Of a stretch of 64,000 bases of DNA, positions 22,516 through 32,142 are shown piece by piece. Within the stretch, counting starts at the first letter, position 1, and each line of letters opens with the position of its first letter. The notes beneath the pieces were generated by a model. It was not told where the DNA came from, ran no database searches, and saw nothing but the letters and a program-made list of their open reading frames with translations. The position numbers were made by a program, and so were the translations under genes. The DNA lies in contig CASFTV010000018.1 of NCBI GenBank assembly GCA_949297765.1, positions 1 to 64,000 of the forward strand. The letters run 5' to 3'. This stretch comes from an uncultured bacterium. Its GTDB lineage: Bacteria; Verrucomicrobiota; Lentisphaeria; Victivallales; UBA1829.

Positions 22516-23418
22516 TCATGCACCGGTTTCGGGGAAGCGGTCGCGGATCCTTTCCAGAAAAATTTCGGCGGCCCTGGAAAACACCTGATATTTCTTCCAG
22601 ACGATGTCCAATCCGGATTCCAGTCCCGGCTCCAGGGGACGGAAGCAGAGCGCCGGATTTCCGAGCGTATCCACCAGTCCGTCAAGAGCAAGCGCATAGC
22701 CGATGCCGGATTCCACCATCAGCGCCGCATTGTAGATCAGATTGTATGTGGCGACAATATTGAGTTTTTCAAACTGCTTGCCGAACCATCCGGCACAGGC
22801 GTTCTTCACACTGCTCTGACGGATGCTGATCCGGGAACAGAGCAGCGGAAGCGGCAGAAGATCGGAGAGAGTCACGCTCTTTTTCTCCGCCAGCGGACTG
22901 TCTTTCCGCATGACCACGCCCCATACGTCTCGAAGCGGAAGCGGGAGAGAGTCATATTTCGAAATATCGACCGGCTGGATCAGAATTCCGAAATCCAGAA
23001 TGCCTTTGTCCAGACGCTCCATCACATCTTCGGCATTGCCGCTGTAAAGATTGTAGCGGATGTCGGGATACTCGCCGCGCAGCCCCCGGATCGTTTCTGC
23101 GATCAGCCTCATTGCCCGGGACTCTCCTCCGCCGATATGGACACTGCCGCCGACACTCTCCCCCATCAAACTGAAATCGGATTCGGTCCGGCTGACGATC
23201 TCCAAAACCTCCTCGGCCCGTTTCCGCAGAAAATGCCCTTCCGGAGTCAGAGTGATGCTCCGGTTGCTGCGGAGAAAAAGACGCTGTCCGAGTTCCTCCT
23301 CCAGATCCTGCAGCTGGCGCGACAGCGTCGGCTGGGTGACATGCAGAAACTTTGCCGCCCGCACAATGGTTCCTTCCCGGGCAACCGCAAGAAAATACCG
23401 CAGAACTCGAATTTCCAT
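22516..23418 (-). CDS. LysR-family transcriptional regulator
   Basis: This 300-residue protein has the LysR winged helix-turn-helix at the N-terminus (MEIRVLRYFLAVAREGTIVR, then HVTQPTLSRQLQDLEEELGQ) and an effector-binding domain of normal length. The start at 23418 follows GGAGGATGTGCTGAG. It is divergent from the exported redox cluster and shares a 163-base intergenic region with it, so it is the expected regulator of that cluster. The effector is unknown; relatives beside similar flavodoxin/CMD genes often respond to redox or electrophile stress, which is only an analogy. Confidence 0.95.
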   Translation of the reverse strand: MEIRVLRYFLAVAREGTIVRAAKFLHVTQPTLSRQLQDLEEELGQRLFLRSNRSITLTPEGHFLRKRAEEVLEIVSRTESDFSLMGESVGGSVHIGGGESRAMRLIAETIRGLRGEYPDIRYNLYSGNAEDVMERLDKGILDFGILIQPVDISKYDSLPLPLRDVWGVVMRKDSPLAEKKSVTLSDLLPLPLLCSRISIRQSSVKNACAGWFGKQFEKLNIVATYNLIYNAALMVESGIGYALALDGLVDTLGNPALCFRPLEPGLESGLDIVWKKYQVFSRAAEIFLERIRDRFPETGA

Positions 23419-23448
23419 CTCAGCACATCCTCCTTCGTTTCCGGATGA

Positions 23449-23477
23449 AAAATAGCATCGCATCCCATGCCTGTCAA
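23449..23477 (-). promoter_or_regulatory. Promoter of the LysR gene
   Basis: Minus-strand TTGACA (23472-23477), 17 bases, TATTTT (23449-23454), just upstream of the LysR ribosome binding site. Confidence 0.7.
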
Positions 23478-23491
23478 GCATGAAACTGTAT

Positions 23492-23581: not shown

Positions 23582-23830
23582 ATGGATCATCAGGAAACAA
23601 TACGGCTGCGGCGCAATCTGAAGGACGCTGGATGCGGAGCGGCTCTGACAGAAAAATTCCTTGAACAAAAGAAAAACGGCGACATACGGGGACAGTTGCG
23701 AATACTGGCGGAACACCGGCGCTCTCTGCTGGAGAAACTCCATGCGGAGCAGAAAAAGATGGATTGTCTGGATTATCTCGTTTTCAATATACAACAACAG
23801 GACACCAACAAAATACGGAGGCGGCAATGA
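23582..23830 (+). CDS. Small helical protein of unknown function
   Basis: This 82-residue protein, preceded by AAAGGAAGGCGGAA, has no signal peptide. It is predicted to form two amphipathic helices, with the pattern LKDAGCGAALTEKFLEQ, then QLRILAEHRRSLLEKLHAEQ, then KKMDCLDYLVFNI. I recognise this pattern from small uncharacterised proteins encoded beside MerR/LysR regulators and flavodoxins in anaerobes, but know no function. It is the first gene of the redox cluster, and its stop overlaps the flavodoxin start (ATGA). Two cysteines invite a redox-sensing role, which is speculation. Confidence 0.82.
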   Translation: MDHQETIRLRRNLKDAGCGAALTEKFLEQKKNGDIRGQLRILAEHRRSLLEKLHAEQKKMDCLDYLVFNIQQQDTNKIRRRQ

Positions 23831-24417
23831 AAAAGAAAACAATGGCTCTGATGATGGCAGCGGCATCCTTTTTCGGGACAGGAGGCTGTTCGGCGGCGGA
23901 AACTCCGGCGGCACAGAAAGTACGACTCGAACCGGGCAAGGTGCTGATCGCCTTCTATTCGTGGAGCGGCAACACCCGTTTTGCGGCGGAACGGATTCAG
24001 AAACTCACCGGAGGAACGCTCTTTGAAATCAAACCCTTCAAACCGTATCCGGCGGATTACGGAGCCTGTGTCGACCAGGCAAAAAAGGAGTGCCGCGAAA
24101 AATTCACTCCTGATCTGGCGGCGGCCCCGGCGGATTTTGGAAAATACAATGTTGTTTTTGTCGGAACCCCGAACTGGTGGAGCACAATGGCGCCGCCGGT
24201 CCGGACCTTTCTCACACGCAATGACTTCCGGGGAAAGACCGTGATTCCCTTTGTCACGCACGGAGGCGGCGGAATGGCGGACTGTGAACGGGATATGCAG
24301 AAAGCGTGTCCGAACGCAGAGTTCCGCAAGGGAGGCGCCTTCTCCGGAAGCTCCATCCGGAGCGCGGGAAGCGCCCTGGAACAATGGATCGGGGAAGTGG
24401 CAGCAATCAGACAATGA
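23827..24417 (+). CDS. Exported flavodoxin-like lipoprotein
   Basis: This 196-residue protein has a lipoprotein signal with the lipid-attachment Cys at C21 (FFGTGGC). The flavodoxin fold starts at VLIAFYSWSGNTRFAAERIQ, the FMN phosphate loop. VVFVGTPNWWSTMAPPVRTF and VTHGGGGMADCERD are the other FMN-contact loops of the flavodoxin_4 group. Cytosolic homologues are common; here a lipobox places it in the envelope. The start is fixed by the four-base overlap with the small gene before it. It probably transfers electrons among the exported reductases downstream. Confidence 0.9.
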   Translation: MKKKTMALMMAAASFFGTGGCSAAETPAAQKVRLEPGKVLIAFYSWSGNTRFAAERIQKLTGGTLFEIKPFKPYPADYGACVDQAKKECREKFTPDLAAAPADFGKYNVVFVGTPNWWSTMAPPVRTFLTRNDFRGKTVIPFVTHGGGGMADCERDMQKACPNAEFRKGGAFSGSSIRSAGSALEQWIGEVAAIRQ

Positions 24418-24425
24418 GGTGCAGA

Positions 24426-25475
24426 ATGCGCGGGAAGCTCTTCTTCGGATGGATGGTTTTTCTTTTTTTCTGGATCAGACCAATGGAGGCAAAAGAAGAT
24501 ATGAGAAATGCTTTGAATCAAAAAGAACAGAACATCGTCGGAATCGCCATGTATGCCGCGCGCGGCGACATGCCGGAACTCAGAACCGCCCTGTCCGCCG
24601 GACTCGACGCGGGGCTGAGTGTAAATGAAATCAAGGAAATCCTTGTTCAGCTCTATGCGTACTGCGGATTCCCGCGCAGTCTGAATGCGCTCGGCAATTT
24701 CATGACACTTGTCCGGGAACGCGCGGCAAAAGGAATCAGCGATGCCGCGGGAAAACTTCCCGGTCCCCTCCCCTCCGGAAAAAGCATTGAGTTCGGAACG
24801 GCCAATCAGACCCGTCTCTGCGGAGGGCCGGTCAAAGGGGAACTCTTCGAGTTTGCTCCGGCGATCGACGAATATTTGAAAGCGCATCTCTTCGGCGATA
24901 TTTTCGGCAGAGACAATCTGGACTGGCGGACTCGGGAAATCGCAACCGTCGCCGCGCTCGGAGCAATGGACGGCGTCGAAAGCCAGCTCTCCTCCCATAT
25001 CGCCATTGCCCAACGCAACGGAGTCACCGATGCGCAGATCCGTGATATTCTGGAACTTGTCAAGCGCCATGCGCCGAGCATCTTCCCGCGCGGAGAAGAA
25101 AATACGGCGTATGCGCGGTATTTCAGCGGAAAATCCTATCTTGCTCCGCTGACAAAGGACAAACGACTCAACGTGCCGATGGCCAATGTAACTTTTGAAC
25201 CCGGATGCCGGAACAACTGGCACCGCCATACCGGAGGTCAGCTTCTGATCGCAGTCGGCGGCGTCGGCTTCTATCAGGAACGCGGAAAAGAGGCCCGGAA
25301 GCTGCTCCCCGGTGATGTGGTCGAAATTCCGCCGGATGTCGACCACTGGCACGGCGCCGCACCCGACAAGTGGTTCGCCCATCTTGCGATCGAATGCAAC
25401 CCCGGCACCAACCAGAACACCTGGCTTGAACCGGTTTCCGACGCGGAGTACAAAAACGCAACCTCCGGAAAATAA
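24426..25475 (+). CDS. Exported carboxymuconolactone decarboxylase-like and cupin fusion protein
   Basis: This 349-residue protein has an N-terminal hydrophobic segment (LFFGWMVFLFFWI) that probably acts as a signal. Two CMD/AhpD-like helical domains follow (about 30-110, YCGFPRSLNALGNF; about 140-220, REIATVAALGAMDG), then a C-terminal cupin (about 250-335) with the metal-ligand pattern NWHRHTGGQ and HWHGAAPDKW. The second CMD repeat has no CxxC pair, so AhpD-type disulfide chemistry is unlikely. The start at 24426 has GAGGTG upstream; ATG 24414, overlapping the flavodoxin stop, is the alternative. The reaction is unknown. Confidence 0.85.
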   Translation: MRGKLFFGWMVFLFFWIRPMEAKEDMRNALNQKEQNIVGIAMYAARGDMPELRTALSAGLDAGLSVNEIKEILVQLYAYCGFPRSLNALGNFMTLVRERAAKGISDAAGKLPGPLPSGKSIEFGTANQTRLCGGPVKGELFEFAPAIDEYLKAHLFGDIFGRDNLDWRTREIATVAALGAMDGVESQLSSHIAIAQRNGVTDAQIRDILELVKRHAPSIFPRGEENTAYARYFSGKSYLAPLTKDKRLNVPMANVTFEPGCRNNWHRHTGGQLLIAVGGVGFYQERGKEARKLLPGDVVEIPPDVDHWHGAAPDKWFAHLAIECNPGTNQNTWLEPVSDAEYKNATSGK

Positions 25476-25521
25476 ACAACTTGAGAACAGAAACGTCAAA
25501 CAAACAGAAACGAGGCCGAAT

Positions 25522-26070
25522 ATGCTCTTTTCCCGGATATCCGGGCGGAATCTTCCGTATCCCGAACGATCTGCGCACCGCTCCCGGAATACGGAGAAAA
25601 GAAACATTCCCGCGGAGAAAACCTTTTGCGTTTTTCCGCATGATGTCCGGGGAAAAATCCGGCTTGGATTTCTCGCGCTCTGGATGGCGGCGCTCCTTCC
25701 GTTCCCGGCAAAATCCGCAGAACGGAAGGGATCTCCTGCCCCAGAGCGGCAACTCACGCCGGAAAGCATTGTCCGGATTTCCCGGATCGAAGTTGATCCG
25801 GCGCGGCTTCCGGAGTACCTTGCGCTTGTCGCGGAGTGCGGACGCGCGTCGATGGCGGAGGAAGCGGGTGTCCGGATGATGTTTTCCATGCAGGAGAAGG
25901 CGCATCCAGAACGGATCACCATTCTGGAAATTTATGCCGATCCCGAAGCATACGGCCATCATATCCGGAGCGCACATTTCCGGAAATACAAGGAAAGAAG
26001 CCTGGAAATGGTCCGGAAACTGGAACTTCTCGATCAGATTCCGCTCGTCCCGGAAATGAAAATGAAATAA
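25522..26070 (+). CDS. Putative exported antibiotic-biosynthesis-monooxygenase (ABM) fold protein
   Basis: The C-terminal part (about 85-182) is an ABM/quinol monooxygenase ferredoxin-like fold: IVRISRIEVDPARLPEYLAL, then EEAGVRMMFSMQEK and ITILEIYADPEAYGHHIRSA. A hydrophobic stretch (LGFLALWMAALLPFPAKSAE, about 50-69) looks like a signal peptide, preceded by an unusually long 45-residue basic region. The true start could lie inside this region, and I give the longest plausible one. The protein sits between the CMD-cupin and cyclophilin-like genes. Heme or quinone oxidation is a family possibility only. Confidence 0.75.
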   Translation: MLFSRISGRNLPYPERSAHRSRNTEKRNIPAEKTFCVFPHDVRGKIRLGFLALWMAALLPFPAKSAERKGSPAPERQLTPESIVRISRIEVDPARLPEYLALVAECGRASMAEEAGVRMMFSMQEKAHPERITILEIYADPEAYGHHIRSAHFRKYKERSLEMVRKLELLDQIPLVPEMKMK

Positions 26071-26088
26071 CGGAAAGGAGTTGTCAAC

Positions 26089-26571
26089 ATGAAATGGCTC
26101 TGCTCTTCGCTGATCTCCGGCCTTCTGCTTGTTCTGAACGCATGCGGGAATGCGGAAACGTCCGCAGCATCCCCGCGGGAGGCCCCCGAAATCATGAACA
26201 GAAAACTGGAAATCCAGATCGGCAGCCGGACCGTGACAGCCGTTCTGTATGAGAGTGCGGCGGCGAAAGAGCTGCTCGCCCAGCTGCCGCTTACTCTGAC
26301 GCTGACCGATTACAACGCCACGGAGAAAATCGCCGATCTTCCGAAAAGGCTTTCGAGTTCCGGCGCACCGGACGGATTCACCCCGTCCGCAGGCGACATC
26401 GCCTACTATGCGCCGTGGGGAAATCTGGCGATTTTCTATCGACCATTCCGCTATTCAAAGCATCTGATCCGTCTCGGGAAAATCGAGAACGGCGGAATTC
26501 ATGAACTGAGCGGTCCCGGAGACCGGAAGGTCACCATCCGAGCACTCTCAGTCAAGGAGGAGACTCCATGA
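26089..26571 (+). CDS. Cyclophilin-like fold lipoprotein
   Basis: This 160-residue protein has a lipoprotein signal (LLLVLNAC, C19) after a good GGAAAGGAG site. The domain with LEIQIGSRTVTAVLYESAAA, LPLTLTLTDYN and GDIAYYAPWGNLAIFYRPF matches the cyclophilin-like small family often found beside flavodoxin and aldo/keto reductase genes. True cyclophilin catalytic residues are not expected, so isomerase activity should not be assumed. Its stop overlaps the start of the Tat flavoprotein (ATGA). Confidence 0.85.
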   Translation: MKWLCSSLISGLLLVLNACGNAETSAASPREAPEIMNRKLEIQIGSRTVTAVLYESAAAKELLAQLPLTLTLTDYNATEKIADLPKRLSSSGAPDGFTPSAGDIAYYAPWGNLAIFYRPFRYSKHLIRLGKIENGGIHELSGPGDRKVTIRALSVKEETP

Positions 26572-27224
26572 ATCGACGCGATTTTCTGAAAACCTCTCTG
26601 GCAGTCACAGCAGCCGCCGGTTCCGCCTTTTTCGGGAACCGGTTGCTGCATGCCGCAGAAACACCGGCGGGAAACAGAAAAAAAGGAGGAACCATGAAAA
26701 TTCTGGTCATCACCGGGAGTCCCCGGAAAAACGGAAATTCCAGCACGCTTGCGGAACACTTCATCCGGGGGGCAAAGGAGTCCGGTCACGCGATTGTCCG
26801 CTTCGATGCGGCGTTCCGGAACGTCCATCCCTGCATTGCCTGCAACAAATGCGACATGAACGGCGAATGTGTGTTCAAAGATGATTTTGAGTTCATCCGG
26901 AACCACATTACGGATGCGGGAATGGTGGTTTTCGCCACGCCGATGTACTATTTCGGCATCTCCGCCCAGATCAAGGCGGTGATCGACCGTTTTTATGCCA
27001 TCAACACCCTGATTCATGTTCCGAAGAAGGCCGCGCTGCTGATGACCTATGCGGACAACAACCGGCGCAAGGAAAAAGCAATCATCGACCATTATGAAGT
27101 TCTGCTGGATTACCTCGGCTGGAAGGATGCCGGACAGGTCATTGCGCCGGGGGTCTGGCCGGTGGGAGCGGTCAGTCGGACGCCGTTTCCGGAACAGGCG
27201 TACCGCCTGGGAAAGAGTGTGTGA
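26568..27224 (+). CDS. Tat-exported NADPH-dependent FMN reductase / iron-sulfur flavoprotein-like
   Basis: This 218-residue protein starts MNRRDFLKTSLAVTAAAG, a twin-arginine signal. From residue 43, MKILVITGSPRKNGNSS begins a flavodoxin-like FMN reductase domain. The compact cluster CIACNKCDMNGEC (about 85-97) resembles the cysteine motif of iron-sulfur flavoproteins, so both FMN and a cluster are plausible. FATPMYYFGISAQIKAVIDR is the usual dimer and FMN loop. Export in folded form fits cofactor loading in the cytoplasm. The M43 codon has its own near-ideal ribosome binding site, so a second, cytosolic product may be made. Confidence 0.88.
   Translation: MNRRDFLKTSLAVTAAAGSAFFGNRLLHAAETPAGNRKKGGTMKILVITGSPRKNGNSSTLAEHFIRGAKESGHAIVRFDAAFRNVHPCIACNKCDMNGECVFKDDFEFIRNHITDAGMVVFATPMYYFGISAQIKAVIDRFYAINTLIHVPKKAALLMTYADNNRRKEKAIIDHYEVLLDYLGWKDAGQVIAPGVWPVGAVSRTPFPEQAYRLGKSV
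26685..26696 (+). promoter_or_regulatory. Internal ribosome binding site within the Tat flavoprotein gene
   Basis: GGAGGA (26685-26690) stands four bases before ATG 26694, in frame, at the exact boundary between the Tat leader and the enzyme domain. It may drive a leaderless cytosolic form, or be a relic of a leader added upstream of an originally cytosolic gene. Confidence 0.55.
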
Positions 27225-27227
27225 TTC

Positions 27228-28229
27228 ATGGACCGGCGGGATTTCATCCGGACTCTCGGCGCCGCCGCGGGCGGAGCAATGCGGATCGGGGCATCGGCCG
27301 GAACTCCCGTACGGAAAAGCGCGGAAGTTTCCCAGGACGATTCGTCCGATTCTCTGCTTGCCGGGGTCTGTGACATTCATCTTCACTGTCTTCCGGACTC
27401 ACGGCCGCGCTGCATCGACGAACTGAGTCTGGCCAAACAGGCGAAGCAGGCCGGATACCGGGGGCTTATGTACAAATCGAATGACTGGAGCTGTCACGAC
27501 CGAGCCTCTCTGATCCGGCTGATTCTTCCGGATTTCGAAGTGTTCGGCAGTCTTTGCATGAACCGCGTTCATGGCGACAAGGTCAATGTGTACGCGGCGG
27601 AACAGGCGCTCAAAACCACGGGATCGCTCTGCCGCTGCATCTGGATGCCGACCCTTTCCTCTGTATGGCAGCATCAATGCGACAAGCTCCCCGGCCTCGG
27701 GATTCCGGTCCTGGACAGACAGGGCCATGTTCTTCCGGAAGTGATCCGGGTTATGGAACTCTGCGCAGAAGCAGACATCATCTTCGCAACCGGACACAGT
27801 TCCCCGCGCGAAAGCTTGATTCTGGCCCGCAAGGCAAAAGAGATCGGAATCAGGAAATTCGTTGTCACCCATGTAAATTCGCTGATCTGGAAAATGACAC
27901 GCGGTCAAATTCTTCAGGCGGTCGATCTCGGAGCGTTTGTGGAATACTGCTATCTGCCGCGGCTCTGGGGACCGGGAACAGGGAATCCGCAGTTCGAACA
28001 TCAGAGCCGGGAGGAGTTCCTGAATTATGTACAAACCGTTCCGGAGCGCAGTTTCATTTCGACGGATCTCGGACAACTGGGCAATCCGAATCCAATCGAC
28101 GGGATGCGCGCATGCATCCGGGAACTGCTCGACGCCGGAATTCCACAGAAAAACATCGACTGCATGGTGCGGCACACCCCCGCATTCCTGATCGGTCTCA
28201 ACCGGAAAGAAAGGAAAATGAAGCAATGA
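27228..28229 (+). CDS. Tat-exported amidohydrolase-like protein (DUF6282-type)
   Basis: This 333-residue protein has the Tat signal MDRRDFIRTLGAAAGG. A TIM-barrel metal-hydrolase pattern follows: CDIHLHCLPD (H51, H53), then FATGHSSPRES, VTHVNSLIWKM and STDLGQLGNP, which supply His and Asp ligands. I recall the DUF6282 family for this architecture; the catalysed reaction is unknown. It starts three bases after the flavoprotein stop and overlaps the aldo/keto reductase start by four bases, so the three are translated from one message. Confidence 0.82.
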   Translation: MDRRDFIRTLGAAAGGAMRIGASAGTPVRKSAEVSQDDSSDSLLAGVCDIHLHCLPDSRPRCIDELSLAKQAKQAGYRGLMYKSNDWSCHDRASLIRLILPDFEVFGSLCMNRVHGDKVNVYAAEQALKTTGSLCRCIWMPTLSSVWQHQCDKLPGLGIPVLDRQGHVLPEVIRVMELCAEADIIFATGHSSPRESLILARKAKEIGIRKFVVTHVNSLIWKMTRGQILQAVDLGAFVEYCYLPRLWGPGTGNPQFEHQSREEFLNYVQTVPERSFISTDLGQLGNPNPIDGMRACIRELLDAGIPQKNIDCMVRHTPAFLIGLNRKERKMKQ

Positions 28230-29512
28230 ATCGACGCGATTTTCTCAAATCCGCAACGCTGGCCGCGGCTGCCGGAGCAGTCTTCGGCAAAGGAGCTGTT
28301 CTGAAAGCGGCGGAAACACCAGGACGCAAGCTGGAGGGTCCGATTCTGAATTTCAATCCGCAAATGCAGTATCGTCCGATGGGGCGGACCGGGGTCAATG
28401 TATCCGCCCTCGGCTTCGGACTGCTGCGGCTGCCGATGCTCGCCGACGGGAAAACCGTCGACTCCGATCAGAGCGTCGCGATGATCCGCCGCGCAATCGA
28501 AGGCGGAGTCAACTACATCGACACCGGACGCGTCTATCTCGGCGGACAGAGCGAAACCGTCGCAGGAAAAGCGCTCAAGGGAGAGTGGCGCAACCGGGTC
28601 TACGTCACCTCCAAAGCCCCGTGGTGGATCATGGAAACACCGGAAGATTTCGAAAAACTCTTCGACGAATCCCGCCGGGCAATCGGAACGGATGTCATTG
28701 ACTTCTATCACATTCACATGGTGATGCACCGCGGCTGGAAGGAAAAGGTGATCCCGTTCCAGCTGATCGACAGGATCATGAAGCTCAAGGAACAGAAAAA
28801 GATCCGTTTTGCCGGATTCTCGTTTCACGACCGTCTTCAGCTGTTCAAGGAGGTGGTCGAATCCGCTCCGTGGGATTTCTGTCTGATCCAGCACAACTAT
28901 CTCGACTATGAATATGAGGCGGGCTGTCTCGGACCGAAATACGCCGCCGTCAACGGCATGGGACTGGCGGTCATGAAACCGGTGCGCACCGGATTTCTGG
29001 CGAATCTGCCGCCCTCCATGCGCGCGGCTCTCCGGTCAACCGGAATTGAGAAACCCGATACCGAATGGGCGCTGGATTATCTCTGGGACATTCCCGAAGT
29101 CAGTGTCGCGGTCAGCGGCATGGGATCCATGGCGGATGTCGAAGCCAATCTGCGGTATGCGTCGAAAGCGAAACCGGACATGCTCACCCCCGATGAACGG
29201 AAAGCTCTCGGCGCAGCGATCCGCGCCTTCCGGGAAACGCCGGGACATATCGACTGCACCGGATGTTATCAGTGCATTCCATGTCCGCAGAACGTGGCGG
29301 TCGGCTACATCTTTGCCTACGTCTACAACAACTACCTGGTGCACAGGGACAAAAAGAGAGCGCTTTTCGACTACACGGTTTCCATGTCTCCCATCCAGCG
29401 GGGCGCTCCGGCGTCGGCGTGTGTGAACTGCGGCGAATGTCTGGCGAAATGCCCGCAGAAACTCAGAATTCCGGAACTGCTCCAGCGTGTCCGGAACGAT
29501 CTCGGATTCTGA
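28226..29512 (+). CDS. Tat-exported aldo/keto reductase with ferredoxin-like C-terminus
   Basis: This 428-residue protein has the Tat signal MNRRDFLKSATLAAAAGAVF. The aldo/keto reductase barrel follows (RPMGRTGVNVSALGFGLLRL), with candidate catalytic residues D99, Y104, K130 and H162 or H164. A C-terminal extension carries two Cys clusters, CTGCYQCIPCPQNV and CVNCGECLAKCPQ, as in the 4Fe-4S aldo/keto reductase subgroup. Export of a protein needing two clusters suits the Tat route. The ATGA overlap fixes this start; longer upstream readings run inside the amidohydrolase gene. The physiological substrate is unknown. Confidence 0.92.
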   Translation: MNRRDFLKSATLAAAAGAVFGKGAVLKAAETPGRKLEGPILNFNPQMQYRPMGRTGVNVSALGFGLLRLPMLADGKTVDSDQSVAMIRRAIEGGVNYIDTGRVYLGGQSETVAGKALKGEWRNRVYVTSKAPWWIMETPEDFEKLFDESRRAIGTDVIDFYHIHMVMHRGWKEKVIPFQLIDRIMKLKEQKKIRFAGFSFHDRLQLFKEVVESAPWDFCLIQHNYLDYEYEAGCLGPKYAAVNGMGLAVMKPVRTGFLANLPPSMRAALRSTGIEKPDTEWALDYLWDIPEVSVAVSGMGSMADVEANLRYASKAKPDMLTPDERKALGAAIRAFRETPGHIDCTGCYQCIPCPQNVAVGYIFAYVYNNYLVHRDKKRALFDYTVSMSPIQRGAPASACVNCGECLAKCPQKLRIPELLQRVRNDLGF

Positions 29513-29561
29513 AAAAGGAGGACGCAAAACACGGAAAATCCGATTTTTTCCAAAAAACACC

Positions 29562-29591
29562 TTGACTTGTACCGATTCCGGGATTTACAGT
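29562..29591 (+). promoter_or_regulatory. Probable promoter for the DUF362 gene
   Basis: TTGACT (29562-29567), an 18-base spacer and TACAGT (29586-29591) lie in the 255-base gap before the DUF362 gene and would leave a leader of about 170 bases. No gene is supported in this gap. Confidence 0.5.
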
Positions 29592-29767
29592 ATCCATGAA
29601 ACAACGGAAGATCCACGAAAAATGCCAAACCAGCAAACAAAAGACAGCGATCGAATTCAAAAGCCCTCGGGGATGCGGAAAACGGACTCCATTCCGCTCC
29701 GCAGATTCCCCGGTCCGGCGGAATGCGGTCGAAGAAATCCAGCAAACACTTCGGAAGGAGAAACCGT

Positions 29768-30751
29768 ATGAACAGACGTGAATTTCTGAAAAACACACTG
29801 GCAATCGCCGCATTTCTTCCGATGGCCGAACTTCTTGCGAAGGCCGCCGGAGCCGGAAAATCCGTTCCGCCGGCAACGGTTTATTTCACGCGGGAACTCT
29901 CGCCGGAAACGGTGATCCGGATGTATCGCGCGCTGGGAATCGCCCTGCCCGGGAAGGTGGCGGTCAAAGTCCATTCCGGAGAAAAGGGAAATCAGAACTA
30001 TCTGCGTCCGGAATTTCTGCGCCCGATGGTTGAAGCCGTCAAAGGGACGGTGGTGGAATGCAACACCGCTTACGAGGGAGCGAGAAATTCCACGGAAAAA
30101 CATCGGAAGCTCATTGCCGAACACGGATGGGACAAATTCTTCCGGATCGATCTGATGGATGCCGAAGGACCGGATCTGGTTCTTCCGGTTCCCGGCGGAC
30201 GCATCCTGAAACAGAATTTCGTCGGGAAAAACATGGCGAACTACAACTCCATGCTGGTGCTTTCGCATTTCAAGGGTCATCCGGTGGCGGGATACGGCGG
30301 AGCGCTGAAACAGCTTTCCATCGGCTGTGCCTCCATCAAGGGAAAAGCGCTGATTCACTCCGGGGGCGTTTCCGGAGATCAGGTGGAATGCTGGAATCAC
30401 ATGGCAACTCCGGAGGTCTTCGGCGACGCCATGGCGGAAGCGGCGGGAACCATCATGGACTATTTCAAAGGCCGCATCGCCTTTGTCAGCATGATGTGCA
30501 ATCTTTCCGTGGACTGCGACTGCTGCGCCGCGGCCGAAAATCCGTGCATGAAAGACATCGGCATACTCTCTTCGACCGATCCCGTTGCGCTGGATCAGGC
30601 GTGCATGGACCAGATCCGTCAATCCGCCGATCCCGGCCGCGAGCATTTTCTGGAGCGGGTCCTCACCCGGAAAGGGACCCGGGTCATCGACACCGCCGCC
30701 GAAAGAGGCGTCGGAACAAAACGCTACAAACTCGTCCGGCTCGATCAATAA
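29768..30751 (+). CDS. Tat-exported DUF362-family protein
   Basis: This 327-residue protein starts MNRREFLKNTLAIAAFLPMA, with the Tat twin arginine. DUF362 landmarks follow: GKVAVKVHSGEKGNQNYLRP, HFKGHPVAGYGGALKQLSIG and SVDCDCCAAAENPCM, the last a Cys-rich loop possibly binding metal. The start at 29768 is chosen for GGAAGGAGAAACC upstream; a slightly longer frame exists. It may have its own promoter, but its Tat leader resembles those of the three preceding genes, so it likely belongs to the same system. Function is unknown beyond a redox association of the family. Confidence 0.87.
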   Translation: MNRREFLKNTLAIAAFLPMAELLAKAAGAGKSVPPATVYFTRELSPETVIRMYRALGIALPGKVAVKVHSGEKGNQNYLRPEFLRPMVEAVKGTVVECNTAYEGARNSTEKHRKLIAEHGWDKFFRIDLMDAEGPDLVLPVPGGRILKQNFVGKNMANYNSMLVLSHFKGHPVAGYGGALKQLSIGCASIKGKALIHSGGVSGDQVECWNHMATPEVFGDAMAEAAGTIMDYFKGRIAFVSMMCNLSVDCDCCAAAENPCMKDIGILSSTDPVALDQACMDQIRQSADPGREHFLERVLTRKGTRVIDTAAERGVGTKRYKLVRLDQ

Positions 30752-30842: not shown

Positions 30843-31553
30843 TTACCAGCGTCCCGAAGCACCGCCTCCACCGAAACCGCCGCCACCGCCGCCGAAACCG
30901 CCTCCGCGGTGGAAGCCGCCTCCGCGGTAGAACCCGCCTCCGCTTCCGCTGCCGTTTTTTCGTCCTCCCCAGCCGAGAAGAGCAATCACGGCGAGAATGA
31001 AAATGACCAGAATGATCTTCCGGAGAGACAAGGTATTTTGGGAATCCGGCGGAGGATCTTTCCTTCCGTCGGGAGCCTTTCCCGTGACAAATTCCTGCAC
31101 TTTGTTGACCGCATAGACCGACCCGCCGGCGTAATCGCCTTTGCGGAAGAAGCTCTGAAGTCCGCGGATGATATCTCCGGCGCGGGCGTCGTTGACCGGT
31201 CCCTCCCATCCGTATCCGACCTCAAGACGCATCCGGCGATCCGCGGGAACCACAATCAGGATTGCGCCGTTGTCCTTCCCTTTATGACCGATTTTCCACG
31301 CATCGCCGAGAGCGATGCCGACCTCTTCGATCGGTGTGGTTCCGATGGAGTTCAGGAAGGCGACCGCCATCTGCCCGCCGGACGCCTGTTCCAGGGAGAG
31401 AATCGCCTGTTCGATCCGTTTGCGACCCTCTCGATTCAGAGTTCCCGTCTGATCGACGACACGTCCGGTCAGGGGCGGGACCCGGAACTCCGAAGCCGAA
31501 AGCGCCAGCGGGACCAGCAGACAGCAGAAAAACAGACCGATCCGATGCAGCAT
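30843..31553 (-). CDS. TPM-domain membrane protein (YgcG family)
   Basis: This 236-residue protein has a signal peptide (1-20), a TPM domain (about 25-155; VVDQTGTLNREGRKRIEQAI and LIVVPADRRMRLEVGYG), one transmembrane helix (IILVIFILAVIALLGW) and a glycine-rich tail ending GGGGASGRW. This is the standard architecture. The start is at 31553, with GGGGGAGGTG upstream, 16 bases after the LemA stop. LemA and TPM genes are paired in many bacteria, probably as an envelope or membrane-quality unit, but the precise role is unknown. Confidence 0.93.
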   Translation of the reverse strand: MLHRIGLFFCCLLVPLALSASEFRVPPLTGRVVDQTGTLNREGRKRIEQAILSLEQASGGQMAVAFLNSIGTTPIEEVGIALGDAWKIGHKGKDNGAILIVVPADRRMRLEVGYGWEGPVNDARAGDIIRGLQSFFRKGDYAGGSVYAVNKVQEFVTGKAPDGRKDPPPDSQNTLSLRKIILVIFILAVIALLGWGGRKNGSGSGGGFYRGGGFHRGGGFGGGGGGFGGGGASGRW

Positions 31554-31569
31554 CCGGACACCTCCCCCG

Positions 31570-32142
31570 TCAGAATCGGACTTCCGGCACTTTTTCGACG
31601 CTCTCCCGTCCCTGAGGCGCCTCGAAATATTCCCGTGTTTCGAGTCCGAGCCCACCGGCGAACAGCGATCCCGGGAACTGGCGGATCGAAGCATTGTACT
31701 TGCGGACCGCCTTGTTGAAACGTGTCCGGGCGACGGCGATCCTGTTTTCCGTCCCCGCAAGTTCATCCTGCAGCCGGGCGAAATTCGTGTTTGCCTTCAG
31801 CTCCGGATAGCGTTCAGCAATCGCGAGAAGCCGTCCGAGAGCGCTGTTGAGTTCCGCACTGGCCCCGGCTTTTGCCTGCGGCCCGGAAGCGCCGAGCAGA
31901 CGGGATCGGGCGGATGCGACCTCCGCAAAAATCTTCTCCTCATGTTGTGCATATCCCTTGACGGTCGAAACCAGATTCGGGATCAGGTCCGCGCGACGCT
32001 GAAGCTGCGTTTCAATCTGACTCCAGCTCTCCCGGACGGATTCCTCTCCGGCGATCAGTCCGTTACGGACGGAAATCCCGGCAAACAGGCAGACAACAAG
32101 CACAACGGCGACAGCCCCGACAGCAATCCAGACACTCTTCAT
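31570..32142 (-). CDS. LemA family protein
   Basis: This 190-residue protein has one N-terminal membrane helix (about 5-24) and a long helical domain with the LemA signature SWSQIETQLQRRADLIPNLV, then NRIAVARTRFNKAVRKYNAS. AAAGGAG precedes the start. It is cotranscribed with the TPM gene. LemA proteins have a four-helix periplasmic bundle of uncertain function. Confidence 0.96.
   Translation of the reverse strand: MKSVWIAVGAVAVVLVVCLFAGISVRNGLIAGEESVRESWSQIETQLQRRADLIPNLVSTVKGYAQHEEKIFAEVASARSRLLGASGPQAKAGASAELNSALGRLLAIAERYPELKANTNFARLQDELAGTENRIAVARTRFNKAVRKYNASIRQFPGSLFAGGLGLETREYFEAPQGRESVEKVPEVRF

Follow-up and report, generated by a model that had tools for sequence, protein, structure and literature searches.

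In a 64,000-nucleotide stretch of DNA from an uncultured bacterium of the Victivallales (the window; contig CASFTV010000018.1 of assembly GCA_949297765.1), positions 23,582 to 30,751 hold a cluster of redox genes that is likely to be a LysR-linked reductive detoxification operon with enzymes on both sides of the inner membrane. The original prediction had seen in these genes a pathway that operates outside the inner membrane. The exported set is indeed real and recurs with its leaders in relatives, but the genes for the CMD-cupin protein, the FMN reductase and, less strongly, the cyclophilin-like protein also have a conserved internal Shine-Dalgarno (SD) sequence and ATG that could give rise to leaderless copies, and these internal starts were absent from the earlier account. 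The leaders, their conservation, and the second SD and ATG with their conservation beyond chance are features of the DNA itself; from them we infer that both starts may be used and that the products may reside in different compartments. Initiation at the first start would yield a form with a leader of the Sec, twin-arginine (Tat) or lipoprotein type that is exported, and initiation at the second ATG, which has its own SD at the junction of leader and enzyme, would yield a leaderless enzyme for the cytosol. For the CMD-cupin protein and the FMN reductase, and probably for the cyclophilin-like protein, both starts would be present on one mRNA.

The long form of the CMD-cupin protein (PF02627 and PF07883) is encoded at 24426..25475 on the forward strand, as are all features below unless stated otherwise, and it begins with a Sec leader of 25 codons whose ATG is preceded by the SD GAGGT (24416..24420). 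A second SD, GGAGG (24485..24489; −9.3 kcal/mol), lies within the end of the leader and is conserved across phyla; it precedes an internal ATG at 24501, from which a short, leaderless form that is predicted to be cytosolic (24501..25475) could be made. The methionine at this junction is invariant in our first alignment of CMD-cupin proteins although the neighbouring residues vary. A leader is present in 71 of 86 non-redundant CMD-cupin genes; the junction ATG is retained in 68 of the 71, and in 53 of the 71 it is combined with a strong SD, defined as −7 kcal/mol or better. Other in-frame ATGs of the same genes seldom have such an SD (18/332; p ~1e-36 in a statistic that ignores kinship). In a held-out set of CMD-cupin genes, the figures were 16/18 for the junction and 2/64 for ATGs in the body of the gene. 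Other genes for proteins with signal peptides on the same fragments rarely have a strong SD at this place (15/352), and six of these 15 are ABM genes that have to be regarded as operon members rather than as background because they are located in CMD-cupin clusters and their leaders end in the same way (LGGNA|MA and variants). In 464 kb of the window's own genome, three of 64 genes with signal peptides score, and one of the three is the cyclophilin-like gene of the operon. The comparisons with ATGs within the genes, with other signal-peptide genes, with the own genome and with the held-out homologues thus rule out that the internal SD arose by chance. An amino acid bias at the end of the leader (GG, KGGK) was considered as well: when codons were shuffled with the residues fixed, 20.6 strong SDs were expected as compared to the 53 observed, which rules out this bias as the full cause in the case of the CMD-cupin genes.

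Two observations were made alongside these comparisons. ABM genes with a leader and an internal SD (LGGNA|MA, IGGQA|MA) are present in the CMD-cupin clusters of gut Alphaproteobacteria (L063:8544-8933, L069:4974-5360, L072:8545-8934, L074:8551-8937, L080:4421-4810 and L088:6652-7134). In the own genome, a gene with a leader on contig C14 (L133:13705-15270), which by eye resembles SGNH hydrolases, has the sequence AAGGAGG..ATG right after the signal peptide and is a possible further dual-start gene.

Several lines of evidence suggest that both the leader and the internal start of the CMD-cupin gene are under selection. In ten relatives from the Victivallales, the leader has exactly 25 codons and its ATG is preceded by an SD-like sequence, and the ratio of nonsynonymous to synonymous change (pN/pS) is 0.57 in the reading frame as compared to 0.89 and 1.26 in the other frames. 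The fixed length, the upstream SD-like sequence and the constraint in the frame indicate that the leader is translated. In the same genes, the synonymous change (pS) drops from 0.70 in the first part of the leader to 0.41 over the internal SD. Moreover, the GGAG core is found in different reading phases and at different distances in the individual clades (LEANxxM, LGGNA|MA, LQGAFA|M and FGGDK|M), and the residues that flank it change from clade to clade (LEA, GGN, QGA, FGG). This variation in phase and distance suggests that selection acts on the RNA and not on the residues. As judged from the codon shuffle, the reduced synonymous change and the several phases, the conservation of the second start of the CMD-cupin gene exceeds the constraint imposed by the amino acids. 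The mRNA is less structured near the junction ATG than near other ATGs, and, after correction for GC content, also less structured than at the equivalent place in other signal-peptide genes. In the Bacteroidota and in Akkermansia, whose genes seldom use SDs, the methionine is retained without an SD. These observations also bear on the idea that the internal SD makes the ribosome pause or helps to target the nascent chain for export instead of serving as a start site. It is true that glycine pairs near the ends of signal peptides account for part of the SD-like sequence, as reflected by the 20.6 of 53 strong SDs expected from the residues; however, a pause would explain neither the low structure around the ATG nor the nearly invariant methionine at initiation spacing that is kept even in genomes rarely using SDs, and we consider this explanation very improbable.

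The FMN reductase gene (26568..27224; PF03358 and PF10518), which encodes an iron-sulfur flavoprotein-like enzyme with the Tat leader MNRRDFLK, has a similar arrangement. Behind the Tat leader, the sequence continues with AAAGGAGGaaccATG; the SD AAGGAGG (26683..26689; −11.2 to −11.8 kcal/mol) precedes an internal ATG at 26694, and relatives that lack a leader begin at precisely the methionine with which the short form (26694..27224) would start. In a held-out set of 20 FMN reductase genes, which includes some leaderless homologues, 16 were at or below −7 kcal/mol and all 20 at or below −5.5 kcal/mol, as compared to 3/73 body ATGs at or below −7 kcal/mol. The gene for the Cyclophil_like2 protein (26089..26571; PF18050, E 2.9e-35), a predicted lipoprotein, has the internal SD GGGAGG (26177..26182; −10.3 kcal/mol) in front of an ATG at 26194, and an internal SD at or below −7 kcal/mol was present in 6/13 homologues with leaders. 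We lean, with some reserve, towards a dual-compartment strategy of the operon as a whole, in which several enzymes would have a second start at the signal-peptide junction and the CMD-cupin architecture would have been preserved in about ten phyla or candidate phyla. In some Alphaproteobacteria and in rumen Victivallales, the internal methionine directly follows a possible signal-peptidase (AxA) site, so that cleavage of the leader and internal initiation would give practically identical polypeptides within the cytosol and beyond the membrane.

The exact coincidence of the internal methionine with the first residue of leaderless homologues suggests that it is the ancestral start, and this would also be expected if the operon served export only, with all leaders working and the internal SDs and ATGs being unused relics of cytosolic genes that were later provided with leaders. 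In agreement with such a scenario, no strong internal start was found in the genes for the aldo/keto reductase (AKR), the DUF6282 protein and the DUF362 protein. A relic SD should, however, decay as the linker behind the leader diverges; instead, it has been kept in several phyla and in differing phases with reduced synonymous change, and we thus regard an operon devoted only to export as unlikely.

The dual-start reading requires that the leaders are genuine. The claim that nearly all proteins of the cluster carry Tat, Sec or lipoprotein signals holds for most of them, and these leaders are conserved, but their strength is uneven. The Sec leader of the CMD-cupin protein is good, and the leader of the ABM-fold protein (25522..26070; PF03992, quinol monooxygenase-like) is doubtful: its frame has no ATG close to the hydrophobic region, and translation probably starts at 25522, about 45 codons upstream of this region. 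Of four proposed Tat leaders, those of the FMN reductase and of the AKR (28226..29512; PF00248, PF13187 and PF10518, with two 4Fe-4S motifs) pass the cut-off of the Pfam profile TAT_signal (PF10518), whereas two have an N-terminal motif of the (S/T)RRxFLK type and yet do not reach this threshold. The DUF6282 protein (27228..28229; PF19799, E 8e-55), a metal-dependent hydrolase-like protein previously described as amidohydrolase-like, reaches only 16.5 bits in the TAT_signal profile as compared to a cut-off of 22.7 bits, and its Tat-like motif (MDRRDF/MNRRNF/TRRDFLK) is conserved among relatives. The DUF362 protein (29768..30751; PF04015, E 1e-45) has no match to TAT_signal despite its motif MNRREFLK. 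With respect to the two proposed lipoproteins, the lipobox LNAC of the cyclophilin-like protein is acceptable when judged by the pattern [LVI][ASTVI][GAS]C, whereas the TGGC of the flavodoxin (Flavodoxin_4; 23827..24417; PF12682, E 2.6e-29) is atypical; yet, GC-S/A is retained in close relatives and the N-terminal leader (FGTGGC) is conserved in the orthologues, and we regard the flavodoxin as a probable lipoprotein. The motif MNRR[DE]FLK is conserved in the relatives of both the FMN reductase and the AKR, the orthologues of the latter being 87-91% identical. The genome also has a gene for TatC, located outside the window (G000:C12, E 1.3e-49). The Tat route inserts cofactors before export, and the 4Fe-4S motifs of the AKR together with its likely catalytic tetrad (D99, Y104, K130 and H164, assigned by motif) as well as the cysteine motif of the FMN reductase fit this route well. 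This motif (C89-x2-C-x2-C-x5-C101), in which C89, C92, C95 and C101 are invariant in the alignment of FMN reductases, has the spacing CysX2CysX2CysX5Cys, which we take to be the motif of the iron-sulfur flavoproteins (Isf). The AKR, the DUF6282 and DUF362 proteins and the flavodoxin, for which no internal start was found in this clade, look export-only, and from their sequences they would be made as exported forms only.

If the leaders had been mis-called, only the internal start would be used, the upstream frame would be untranslated and the enzymes would be cytosolic. Many relatives of the FMN reductase are in fact leaderless, and the CMD-cupin gene of Citrobacter (L116) as well as one copy in LSJC7 (L104) lack a leader. 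In the CMD-cupin relatives discussed above, in contrast, the start codon of the leader, its SD, the exact 25 codons, the hydrophobic profile and the coding constraint are all conserved, as is the Tat motif of the AKR and the FMN reductase. The leaders, whose absence from relatives would have spoken against export, are thus conserved there, and mis-called leaders have hardly any probability in our judgement.

Some points weigh against the use of both starts. The leaders were assigned by motif and hydropathy rather than by SignalP. The homologues are related to each other, so the p-values overstate their independence. In four genes of the Kiritimatiellae type (L090, L096, L097, L099), the scored ATG is located in the hydrophobic core and not at the junction, and these genes should be discounted. 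In the CMD-cupin genes of the Victivallales, the distance of about 11 nt between SD and ATG exceeds the ideal. For the FMN reductase alone, the codon shuffle gave no significant excess (8 strong SDs seen, 4.0 expected, p 0.21) because the linker of lysine and glycine residues is rich in purines anyway, and for this gene taken alone the amino acid bias may be the source of the SD. Finally, the proposals for the electron donor and the substrate are themselves inferred, and this counts against the overall picture as well.

The expectation that the same exported set would be found in related bacteria was borne out. Orthologous operons with the same gene order and with leaders are present in relatives from the same genus, family and order (L021, L022, L024, L025), and a scan of GTDB species genomes revealed the operon in Victivallis vadensis DSM 14823 and in other Victivallales (L038-L045). 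Looser CMD-cupin clusters that contain flavodoxin, FMN_red, Cyclophil_like2, AKR and a dienelactone-hydrolase-like protein in varying combinations occur in Akkermansia, Alphaproteobacteria, Melainabacteria, Veillonella, Planctomycetes, Desulfovibrio and Bacteroidota. Many of these loci come from metagenome-assembled genomes, and their taxonomy is given as labelled. The module is patchy, since Cyclophil_like2 is present in only 18/198 genomes of the class. The DUF362 gene is common to only some of the relatives: it is about 80% identical in L044 and L045 and was not found in L024, L025 and L043. Some loci differ in their layout: L021:2983-14456 and L041 have two LysR genes and two copies of the open reading frame for an 82-amino acid protein flanking the operon, and a second Tat-AKR is inserted. 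In L022:8936-14201, no genes for the FMN reductase and the DUF6282 protein lie between those for the cyclophilin-like protein and the AKR, but the FMN reductase is encoded on another contig of the same genome (G117:C231).

The exported reductases would need a donor other than NAD(P)H since the latter is unavailable outside the cytosol. As stated in the original prediction, no membrane donor is encoded in the window. In six relatives (L048, L049, L051, L068, L072, L080), the fragment that holds the CMD-cupin gene also encodes a membrane Fe-S protein of the NapH type (Fer4_5), a candidate electron donor for the exported enzymes. In the genome of the window, a NapH-like membrane polyferredoxin with the internal Tat-like motif SRRAFLK is encoded on another contig (C10, L140:7055-8365), and this protein is a candidate quinol-to-Fe-S donor for this genome's exported redox enzymes. 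The electrons for the exported part of the system probably come from the quinone pool via such a protein. The family names suggest reactive electrophiles, quinones or plant phenolics as the substrate. A review on hypochlorite mentions the induction of CMD in Burkholderia only in general terms.

Individual components of the system resemble known proteins. The cupin half of the CMD-cupin protein matches TM1010 (2f4p) as well as 4bif, 8oz8 and 4uxa, the last three of which we take to be cupin hydroxynitrile lyases, and the CMD half matches 4g9q; in contrast to these proteins, the two halves are fused here and carry a leader. The protein remains below the cut-offs for (R)-mandelonitrile lyase (NF049940; 127.2 vs. 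140 bits) and for PcaC, 4-carboxymuconolactone decarboxylase (TIGR02425; 71.4 vs. 155.7 bits). The FMN reductase shares the FMN_red fold (PF03358) and the compact cysteine motif with the Isf and NADPH-dependent FMN reductase family but differs in that an enzyme which is normally cytosolic carries a Tat leader here and retains an internal start. Pairs of N-terminal proteoforms have been detected by Ribo-RET in Salmonella and E. coli, among them short forms of PagC and OmpX without a signal peptide (PMC11005335). As in the present case, one gene has two in-frame starts and the downstream product lacks the Sec signal peptide; however, those are isolated genes of enterobacteria, whereas here at least two genes of one operon would be affected and the junction methionine of the CMD-cupin protein is found across about ten phyla or candidate phyla. 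A paper on HBP35 of Porphyromonas gingivalis discusses alternative translation initiation and several cellular locations (PMC2907840). This protein is also redox-related but belongs to a different family, thioredoxin-like and haem-binding, and a single gene is concerned. Among papers with an open licence, we found no description of this gene cluster, of an operon with several dual-start enzymes or of the conservation of such an operon in many phyla, which is weak evidence for novelty.

If both starts are used, this would be a widely conserved case of one gene serving both sides of the inner membrane through translation alone, and it would explain how enzymes that normally need cytosolic cofactors can have export leaders while the cytosol keeps its copies. 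Gene callers pick one start per gene, and such enzymes are filed either as cytosolic or as exported; both labels would then be half wrong. An SD and an ATG placed where a signal peptide ends would be a simple signature to search for in other genes, and cultured hosts such as V. vadensis DSM 14823 make the idea testable.

All ten genes that had been named or implied in the original prediction are present at the stated position, which confirms that the redox genes occur together. Several of the genes overlap or abut, for example with overlaps at 23827 and 28226, suggesting that they form one transcript. The gene for the LysR-type regulator (22516..23481, reverse strand; PF00126 and PF03466) is divergent from the operon and has the matching position in L022, L025, L038, L039, L040 and L043; this layout suggests that LysR may control the operon. 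The 82-amino acid protein encoded beside it (23582..23830), the stop codon of which overlaps the start of the flavodoxin gene, has no match in Pfam/NCBIfam. It has orthologues at 35-60% in L021, L022, L030 and L032, and it is conserved beside the LysR gene. This protein weakly resembles MerR regulators over their C-terminal part (3gp4, residues 49-111, E 0.13), lacks the region that binds DNA and may be a small sensor or anti-regulator. Downstream of the operon, convergent genes on the reverse strand (30843-32142) resemble, by eye, those for a TPM/YgcG-domain protein and a LemA protein and are unrelated to it.

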